From: Aliiroseovarius sp.
Lineage (GTDB): Bacteria; Pseudomonadota; Alphaproteobacteria; Rhodobacterales; Rhodobacteraceae
Length of the DNA: 64,000 bases
Direction of reading: 5' to 3'
Assembly: GCF_030148435.1 (NCBI RefSeq)
Contig: NZ_JASBTN010000079.1
Coordinates: 62,001-126,000 of the forward strand
Made by a program: the position numbers and the translations under genes. Positions 21,228 through 55,278 of the stretch are shown one piece after another. Within the stretch, counting starts at the first letter, position 1. Each line of letters begins with the position of its first letter. The notes below the pieces were generated by a model, which had not been told where the DNA came from, did no database searches, and worked only from the letters and a program-made list of their open reading frames with translations.

Positions 21228-21484
21228 GGCCGCAGTATGCCGAAGAGCGGGGCGGGGGCAAGGGATTGCGCGGCGTTCCGCAACGGGTCTGCACTGGGCA
21301 TCGGGCGCGGGATGTCGGGCGCGGGACGCCGGGCGCACCCTTGGCCCGACGACTGTTTCAACCAGGGGCTGCAATTCGACCTCCAGGCTGTGCACCTTGC
21401 CGGCAAACGGGGGCAAATGTCGCATCCATCCGGCAGATGTCGCCCCTGTCCCTTGACCCGACTCGGCCCCGGGGCTAGAGCGGG

Positions 21485-21690
21485 GGCGCTTCGGTCCGGG
21501 CCTCGTGCCTGGTGCAAAAGGGAACGCGGTGCGCCTGTCTGGTCAACCCGCGACTGCCCCCGCAACTGTAAGCGGCGAGGCGCGTCGGACATGCCACTGT
21601 CCCCCGTAAGGGTGGGATGGGAAGGCCCGATGCGCTGCTTGAGCCGCGAGTCAGGAAACCTGCCGAGGTGATCACCCTGTATCCGGCGCG
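21485..21690 (+). promoter_or_regulatory. Cobalamin (AdoCbl) riboswitch
   Basis: GCCTGGTGCAAAAGGGAACGCGGTGCG, CCGCGACTGCCCCCGCAACTGTAAGCGG, CCACTG...GGGAAGGCCC and GAGCCGCGAGTCAGGAAACCTGCC B12-box; upstream of a TonB receptor. Confidence 0.95.
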
Positions 21691-50782: not shown

Positions 50783-52942
<2,160 letters not shown>

Positions 52943-53042
52943 GACTGATTCCTTCCGGGCCTCCCTAAGATGGTCGCATTCTGGTCGCGCGCAAGGGCCT
53001 GCCGCGTGGTCATCATGGCCTGTCCTGTCAGCGGCTGTCAGC

Positions 53043-53870
53043 ATGGCGCGCATGAAGGTCTGGGATTGGCCCGGTACGGGCGAGAAAGCGTGGTTTTACG
53101 GGGGGAACGGCTTCCCCCTGGGCTTTTATGAACCGCTGATGCGGCGGCTGGCGCGGCGGGTATCCCTGTCCGGTCTGCACAACCGCGCCTGTTGGTCGGA
53201 GGCGGGGGCGCCCGGGCGCGGGGATGGCTGGCGGCGCTACGGCGCAGACCTGGCCCATGCGATCCGGGCGCGGGGGGCGGGCGTGATCGGGATCGGCCAT
53301 TCGATGGGCGCCTGTTCCATGGTGCTTGCGCAGCGGGCCGATCCTTCGCTGTTTCGCGCGCTGGTGCTGGTGGAGCCTGCCGTTGTCTCTCCCCGTGCCG
53401 TGAGAGTGGCGAAAAGGATGCCGAAATGGGCCGGGCGTTTCGTGAAACCCGTGCGCGCGGCGCGGGACCGCAGGGATCATTGGCCGGATGGGGCGCAATA
53501 TCTGGCCGAGCTGCAATCCCACCCCGCCTATCGCCGTTTCGACGCGGAGGCTTGGGCGGCGGTCGCGGCCCATGGGACGGTTGCAAACGGGCAGGGGGTG
53601 CAGCTGGCCTTTCCCAAGGCCTGGGAGGCGCATAATTTCTTTCATGCCGAGGCGGTGCTGGCCGATGTTGAAACGCTCGACATCCCGGTGGCGGTGATCC
53701 GCGGGCGGCCGAGCTATTTCTTCCCGGAGCCGATGTGGCATGAACTCGCCCGGGTGCGGCCGGACTTTGTTACGCTGGAAGACCCCGCTTTCGGCCATCT
53801 TTTGCCGATCGAGGCGCCCGGATCGGCATATGATCTCATCTCTCAGGCGCTTTCCCGCCTGTCCGCTTGA
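53043..53870 (+). CDS. Alpha/beta hydrolase
   Basis: Nucleophile elbow [19 protein letters not shown]-terminal Asp/His region. Confidence 0.85.
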
Positions 53871-53927: not shown

Positions 53928-54389
53928 ATGGTCACGATCCGACGCGCAGAGATGAAGGACGCCCCGGCAATTGCCCGGCTGGTGGAGGCACTGTTGACGG
54001 AATTGAGCGGCGATGGGCTCGCCCCCGTGGCCCCCGTGGCCCCCGTGGCCCCCGTGGCGCGACAGCTTCTGGCCGGGCAGCAGGTGATCGGGCTGTTGGC
54101 CGAATCCGACCGGCGTGCAGTGGGCGTGATGATGCTGAACCGCTGCGCGGCGATCTACGCGGGCGGCGGCTTTGGCGAGATTTCCGAGCTTTACGTCGAT
54201 CCCGCCTTTCGGTCACGCGGTGTGGCGGCCGAGCTGTTGGGTTTTGCGCGCGAAGTGGCCCGGCGCGAGGGCTGGACCCGGCTGGAAGCCGGCGCACCCG
54301 CGCAACCCGCCTGGGCACGCTCGCTGGCCTTTTTCGAACGCGAAGGTTTTGCCGAGGTCGGACCGCGTCTGCGCTGGGTGGCGGCATAG
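53928..54389 (+). CDS. GNAT family N-acetyltransferase with internal (A-P-V)n repeat
   Basis: VTIRRAEMKDAPAIARLVEALL...GEISELYVDPAFRSRGVAAELLGFAREVARREGWTRLE. Confidence 0.88.
   Translation: MVTIRRAEMKDAPAIARLVEALLTELSGDGLAPVAPVAPVAPVARQLLAGQQVIGLLAESDRRAVGVMMLNRCAAIYAGGGFGEISELYVDPAFRSRGVAAELLGFAREVARREGWTRLEAGAPAQPAWARSLAFFEREGFAEVGPRLRWVAA
54021..54056 (+). repeat. 9-bp tandem repeat GCCCCCGTG x4
   Basis: gcccccgtg repeated four times, in frame, encoding (A)PVAPVAPVAPVA. Confidence 0.95.
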
Positions 54390-54578: not shown

Positions 54579-54607
54579 TTGCACGATTATTCTCCTCGCG
54601 CTAGCGT
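54579..54607 (+). promoter_or_regulatory. Candidate sigma70 promoter for the structured RNA
   Basis: TTGCAC-N17-TAGCGT; AT-rich upstream stretch. Confidence 0.35.
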
Positions 54608-54612
54608 CAAGG

Positions 54613-54886
54613 GGCAAGCAGCAAGACAGGCTGTCGGCCCTGACGAAACACCCACCCCACCCCTCGCTCCCTCGTCAGGTGCCGGCAGCCCACCTTTCCT
54701 GAGACGAGTTGTCTTGCACGAGACCAAGGGCGTTTCGGCTTGTTGTTGAGACACGGCAATCAGGCGAAGTGCACGGAACTGGTTGAAGTTGTAGGCGTTT
54801 CGAAATCAAGTTGTATCCCAACTTAATCTCGAAACGCTTCGGTAAATGGTACTACGCCCCGGGCATGTCCCGGGGCTTGTTTTTTA
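54613..54886 (+). ncRNA. Candidate structured non-coding RNA
   Basis: Nested stems 54621-54628/54710-54717 and 54630-54646/54672-54689 with a C-rich loop, a 19-bp hairpin 54795-54837 with 17/19 pairing, and terminal hairpin plus T-run 54856-54886; no convincing ORF. Confidence 0.45.
54856..54886 (+). terminator. Rho-independent terminator
   Basis: GCCCCGGGcatgtCCCGGGGC followed by TTGTTTTTTAT. Confidence 0.8.
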
Positions 54887-54966
54887 TGGTGCCCGGGGTG
54901 TCTCGGGGCTTGCGCTGGGGGCCAAGGTTTCGGATAACATGCCCAGCCCTATCAAGGAGTCGATCC

Positions 54967-55278
54967 ATGCGCGCCCGTATCTATCAACCCGCCCGCAACG
55001 CCATGTCCTCGGGCATGGGCAAGACGCGGGTCTGGCTGTTGGAATTTGCCAATGACGAGGCGCGCGAGATTGATCCGCTGATGGGCTGGACCGGCTCGGG
55101 TGACACGCAAAGCCAGGTGCGCCTGCGCTTTGACAGCAAGGAGGCCGCACTGGCCTATGCCGAGGCCAAGGGGATCGAAGCCACGGTGACTGAGCCCCAC
55201 AAGCGCGTGGCGAACATCCGTCAGGGCGGCTATGGCGAGAATTTCGCCACCAACCGCCGCGGTCCCTGGACCCACTGA
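54967..55278 (+). CDS. ETC complex I subunit conserved region protein (NDUFS4-like)
   Basis: [69 protein letters not shown]. Confidence 0.92.

Follow-up and report, generated by a model that had tools for sequence, protein, structure and literature searches.

The 64,000-nt stretch of Aliiroseovarius DNA analyzed here (the window) carries a candidate small RNA (sRNA) gene that appears to represent a new family within a known class, the trans-acting sRNAs with a C-rich loop. The conserved unit is a predicted RNA of ~80–95 nt starting at position 54614, made up of a fixed 5' tag, a stem of 16–18 bp and a nearly G-free, C-rich loop of ~25 nt. It lies in a gap flanked on the 5' side by a GNAT gene (53928–54389) and on the 3' side by an NDUFS4-like gene encoding an ETC complex I subunit (54967–55278, + strand). 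The first-pass annotation had described this gap as free of convincing ORFs, which holds, and the only plus-strand ORF that begins in the gap and continues extends the NDUFS4 ORF upstream in the same frame. The stems, loop, hairpin, terminator and promoter that it named are all present where it placed them. What is conserved across the family is narrower: the promoter and 5' tag, together with the main stem and its loop (54579 to about 54699).

The main hairpin occupies 54629–54690 (+). Its stem pairs 54629–54646 with 54672–54690 over 18 bp with a single bulged T, and encloses an exposed 25-nt C-rich loop, AACACCCACCCCACCCCTCGCTCCC (54647–54671, +), the presumed interaction region. The 86-nt core folds with z = −6.0, and 0 of 200 shuffles folded equally well. 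Eight homologues were aligned for a first covariance model, 100 matches were confirmed and realigned, and 88 sequences were used for covariation. Compensatory changes on both sides occur in all 12 modelled stem pairs (RNAalifold plus a pair count, 88 sequences). Paired cells make up 96.8%; shuffling lowers the share to 80.5%, and sliding the 3' partner by 1–3 columns leaves no more than 56%. Doubly changed cells number 188, where shuffles give 54.4 ± 6.5 and a slid partner gives 43 or fewer. A covariance model leans to the structure it was built on, yet a shift of the partner by a single base is enough to destroy the signal, so we take the stem to be a genuine, conserved RNA helix. The earlier suggestion that sequence changes keep pairing potential is thus confirmed. 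GC-rich intergenic regions often hold hairpins, so chance inverted repeats lacking an RNA function were considered; the covariation at 12 of 12 pairs refutes this reading, single-copy synteny and promoter conservation (below) also speak against it, and we give it a negligible probability.

The loop is conserved by sequence, whereas the sequence of the stem varies. Its consensus is CACCCACCCCACCCCTCGCTCCC; across 76 members it averages 24.7 nt, with 66% C and 3.6% G, and CACCC is found in it at 98 of 100 loci. The C-rich loop of the first-pass annotation thus stands as a conserved, exposed feature of the sRNA. Loop lengths differ by numbers that are not multiples of three, so a peptide encoded here is disfavoured. 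Some genera have a second loop form near CACCACACACCCCACCCACACTCCCC, in which the TCGC core is broken (L040, L054, L066, L071, L075, L087 and others); this type may mark a clade with shifted targets.

Pairing around the main hairpin is more variable. The window has an optional outer stem, a perfect 8-bp repeat pairing 54621–54628 with 54710–54717 (54621–54717, +). At 26 loci, more than the 5.8 expected by chance, a CTTGC on the 3' side is available to pair with the 5' tag; this pairing is not universal in the family. In the divergent members L271, L284 and L289, a full closing stem of 9–10 bp is seen, GCAAGCAG.../...CTGCTTGC.

Promoter boxes conserved over 100 loci precede the RNA. In the window they are a −35 box TTGCAC (54579–54584, +) and a −10 box TAGCGT (54602–54607, +; family consensus TAnnnT), and the spacer is 17 nt both here and in the family consensus TTGC-N17-TAnnnT. 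Base frequencies in the −35 region are T 0.88, T 0.70, G 0.66 and C 0.52 at positions −35 to −32; in the −10 region they are T 0.61 at −12, A 0.84 at −11 and 0.85 for the last T at −7. Besides these boxes, the only conserved block near the RNA on its upstream side is a T-rich stretch just above −35. The promoter is probably of the housekeeping type. We set the start at 54614, 7 nt past the −10 box, because the TTGC and TAnnnT boxes stand at a fixed distance upstream of the conserved 5' tag GCAAGCAGC (54614–54622, +); the annotated start near 54613 from TTGCAC-N17-TAGCGT agrees with this to within one nucleotide. The tag is exact at 72 of 100 loci, and its columns are 96% identical in the 88 sequences. 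Transcription itself is predicted from these sequence features, as is the position of the 3' end. A pyrimidine-rich tail at 54691–54699 (+) may be the 3' end of a short form. Across the family, the pyrimidine share from +2 to +12 past the stem is 71%, compared with 57% farther downstream, with a clear U run absent, and no intrinsic terminator recurs consistently past the stem across the family members compared. With pyrimidines abundant downstream and U runs inconsistent, we grade the 3' end as uncertain.

The first-pass annotation had drawn one sRNA of ~270 nt that ran through a further hairpin to an intrinsic terminator. A DNA search of 61 genomes shows that this region is composite. Positions 54597–54690 have one matching place each in other Rhodobacteraceae genera, whereas 54729–54840 (+) have several matching places in the genome of the window and in one other genus (G009). 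The latter segment looks like a MITE or palindromic repeat, a class assignment made from its sequence. Its copies in the same genome include C6, C15 and C38, its ends are TAAAGCGTTTCG...CGAAACGCTTTA, and it occurs in long and short, internally deleted forms of ~110 bp and ~50 bp (L296, L297 and L298 in the same genome; L299–L306 in G009). The further hairpin, with 19-nt arms (54795–54813/54819–54837), sits inside this repeat; we therefore reject it as a part of the sRNA and regard it as belonging to a downstream insertion. A 24-mer of the hairpin is unique in the genome even when 3 mismatches are allowed, so the repeat copies have diverged and are found by BLAST only. The relatives compared lack the repeat after the sRNA hairpin.

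The terminator is real in the window (54856–54883, +; stem 54856–54876 with 8 G–C pairs, then a T run) and fails as a part of the family, since it has no counterpart past the sRNA hairpin in the relatives compared. At 54854–54901 the G+C-rich sequence of its stem is nearly repeated past the T run, so that two alternative stems could form. The ~270-nt length accordingly gives way to ~80–95 nt for the conserved RNA. Because the inserted repeat and the terminator follow the sRNA here, a longer form of ~270 nt is possible in the genome of the window, where a transcript may well reach this strong terminator; the 274-nt stretch also folds better than all shuffles (z = −4.6). As an account of the sRNA itself, a single 270-nt RNA including the hairpin and terminator is nevertheless improbable, given that 54729–54840 is an interspersed repeat with copies elsewhere and missing from this place in relatives.

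The ~80–95-nt RNA is widespread in Rhodobacteraceae. The 8-sequence covariance model matched 126 of 299 genomes of this family, and the 88-sequence model matched 157 of 398, with one copy each. The latter figure is at least what the family holds, since scoring was confined to the best first-look candidates, and inspection by eye of 24 model-negative or weakly matching genomes revealed a recognisable divergent copy in 5. Among the divergent members that the model missed or matched only weakly (L271, L284, L289, L292 and L279), most retain the 5' tag and loop. Named carriers include Rhodobacter capsulatus, Thioclava, Shimia, Celeribacter, Maritimibacter, Salipiger and Aliiroseovarius. Among 241 genomes drawn from the class, four outside the family matched (G487, G540, G621 and G648; E 0.003–0.01). 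None has NDUFS4 near the match, and we judge all four to be chance. Retention by many genera suggests a widespread regulatory RNA.

The locus is also conserved, and synteny was not an input, as the covariance model carries no neighbour information. The NDUFS4-like gene lies downstream and co-directional at 100 of 100 loci examined, at a median distance of 176 nt, and uvrB lies upstream on the opposite strand at 91 of 100 (50783–53053, −, in the window). The GNAT gene between uvrB and the sRNA is peculiar to the genome of the window among the 100 loci compared. An independent exact-pattern scan of named genomes found 107 of 117 sRNA loci adjoining NDUFS4.

This position, directly upstream and on the same strand, is what a cis-acting NDUFS4 leader (riboswitch-like or an attenuator) would occupy. 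Several observations place the RNA outside the 5' UTR of NDUFS4 and make such a leader very improbable, a shade more so than the 270-nt RNA. NDUFS4 has a separate promoter between the RNA and its start codon, in the window TTGCGC-N17-GATAAC (54910–54938, +). The corresponding pattern (TTG, a 16–18-nt spacer after the −35 hexamer and an ATAA-type −10) occurs ~56 nt before the start codon at 53 of 100 loci, compared with 1.0 expected, and NDUFS4 and its promoter are also present where no sRNA is seen. One or two whole genes intervene between sRNA and NDUFS4 at L047, L186, L187, L252 and L253, and at L185 and L212 NDUFS4 was not found within the available downstream DNA. In the window, the terminator at 54856 separates the two. 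Since NDUFS4 has its own promoter and the sRNA persists with genes in between or without NDUFS4 nearby, we reject the leader and take the RNA to be an independent sRNA. With its own promoter and a conserved structure apart from the neighbouring mRNA, the sRNA is predicted to be a separate transcription unit.

Comparison with Rfam 15 upholds the earlier view of this sRNA as undescribed. At gathering thresholds no family matched the sRNA region in the window, and with permissive filters the best match to the region scored 16.8 bits, against a cut-off of 49.5; a scan of 20 further sRNA loci returned tRNAs only. A text search for the loop sequence in six spellings found it printed in none of the papers covered, and the sRNA may be an unnamed entry in the supplements of published sRNA tables. 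The published passages on Ruegeria pomeroyi that were compared do not give positions for trans sRNAs. Paracoccus denitrificans intergenic 134 and 60 were set apart, because they match sequences in Streptomyces or sphingomonads and the present sRNA does not.

Four known alphaproteobacterial systems share the C-rich single strand. GsrN, the Caulobacter general-stress sRNA, likewise pairs with mRNA through an exposed C-rich loop. It depends on an EcfG-type sigma factor, whereas the Rhodobacteraceae sRNA has TTGC-N17-TAnnnT. CcsR1-4, from the same bacterial family, have a C-rich motif like this sRNA, in their case resembling an anti-Shine-Dalgarno sequence. They are four tandem homologous copies cotranscribed with ccaF1 in Rhodobacter sphaeroides (PMC8307010), whereas our sRNA is single copy, with one long hairpin at the uvrB/NDUFS4 locus. 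The alphaR8 sRNAs of Caulobacter (SisA-D) have a single-stranded C-rich 10-mer, UUUCCUCCCU, of anti-Shine-Dalgarno character, which is placed on a linear single-stranded segment behind a weak hairpin and is accompanied by a Rho-independent terminator (PMC12559287); in the Rhodobacteraceae sRNA the C-rich motif is instead the loop of a long stem. The fourth is PmaR of Agrobacterium tumefaciens (formerly C10), a spoon-like RNA in which one long stem carries a large, single-stranded loop that is rich in C and includes CCCA. Structure probing showed this loop to be open, and changing CCCA to UUUU abolished target regulation (PMC6234868). The Rhodobacteraceae sRNA has the same long stem and large C-rich loop, and both are single intergenic genes in an alphaproteobacterium. 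PmaR has been reported only in Agrobacterium and one Rhizobium strain, its gene sitting between two hypothetical ORFs (PMC6234868), and lacks the family-wide uvrB/NDUFS4 synteny. The likeness described here is one of architecture, and our covariance model gives only chance-level matches in other alphaproteobacterial families.

On balance, we consider it probable that this is a single-copy, independently transcribed, trans-acting sRNA of ~80–95 nt that pairs with mRNAs through its C-rich loop. A housekeeping-type promoter would start the RNA at GCAAGCAGC, and the long stem, free in sequence as long as it pairs, would present the ~25-nt, nearly G-free loop, which would stay single-stranded. The loop could then pair with target mRNAs where these are G-rich, for example at Shine-Dalgarno regions (CUCCC with GGGAG), and alter the translation or stability of those mRNAs. 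Both the base-pairing action and the mRNA targets are inferred from this architecture and from the analogies above. The first-pass proposal that the loop targets ribosome-binding sites remains plausible, although we found no enrichment of long complementary sites: across 30 genomes, 13-mer sites number ~150 when the sRNA's own are excluded and 192 for the reversed control, which is no excess. Long perfect sites in large numbers are thereby ruled out, whereas short seeds are not, and any pairing must rely on such seeds or involve few targets. A model in which only the loop acts does not explain why the 5' tag is near-invariant.

The lack of enriched target sites would also be expected if the RNA bound a protein instead. 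Under this less likely but credible alternative, the G-free C-rich loop binds a C-loving protein (Rho, Hfq, or a cold-shock or DUF1127-type protein), and the RNA either acts as a decoy that sequesters the bound protein or directs Rho-dependent termination before NDUFS4. Rho sites would be expected to look like this, with a C-rich, G-poor loop and then a C-rich tail in which no clear U run is seen. Nevertheless, a loop of 25 nt is rather small to be a complete Rho site, and the retained sequence (TCGCTCCC / CACTCCC) is more specific than mere C-richness requires. A related version, to which we give slightly less weight still, holds that a single-copy protein- or Rho-binding RNA, not a classical mRNA-pairing sRNA, contacts protein at two sites, the near-invariant tag GCAAGCAGC at its 5' end and the G-free C-rich loop. 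If true, the RNA would regulate a global RNA-binding factor throughout the family.

Rhodobacteraceae (Rhodobacter, roseobacters and relatives), which are major aquatic cyclers of carbon and sulfur, thereby gain a predicted family-wide structured sRNA. It is accessible in tractable members such as Rhodobacter capsulatus, and its alignment, start site and loop are defined sufficiently for functional testing. Spoon RNAs of the PmaR type with a C-rich loop also occur far from Agrobacterium, through either deep descent or convergence.

Two further features of the window lie outside the sRNA. The GNAT gene contains a tandem 9-bp in-frame repeat at 54020–54057 (Pro-Val-Ala units), in which length changes could leave the frame intact. 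A cobalamin riboswitch is present at 21475–21681 (+; Rfam RF00174, 112 bits).
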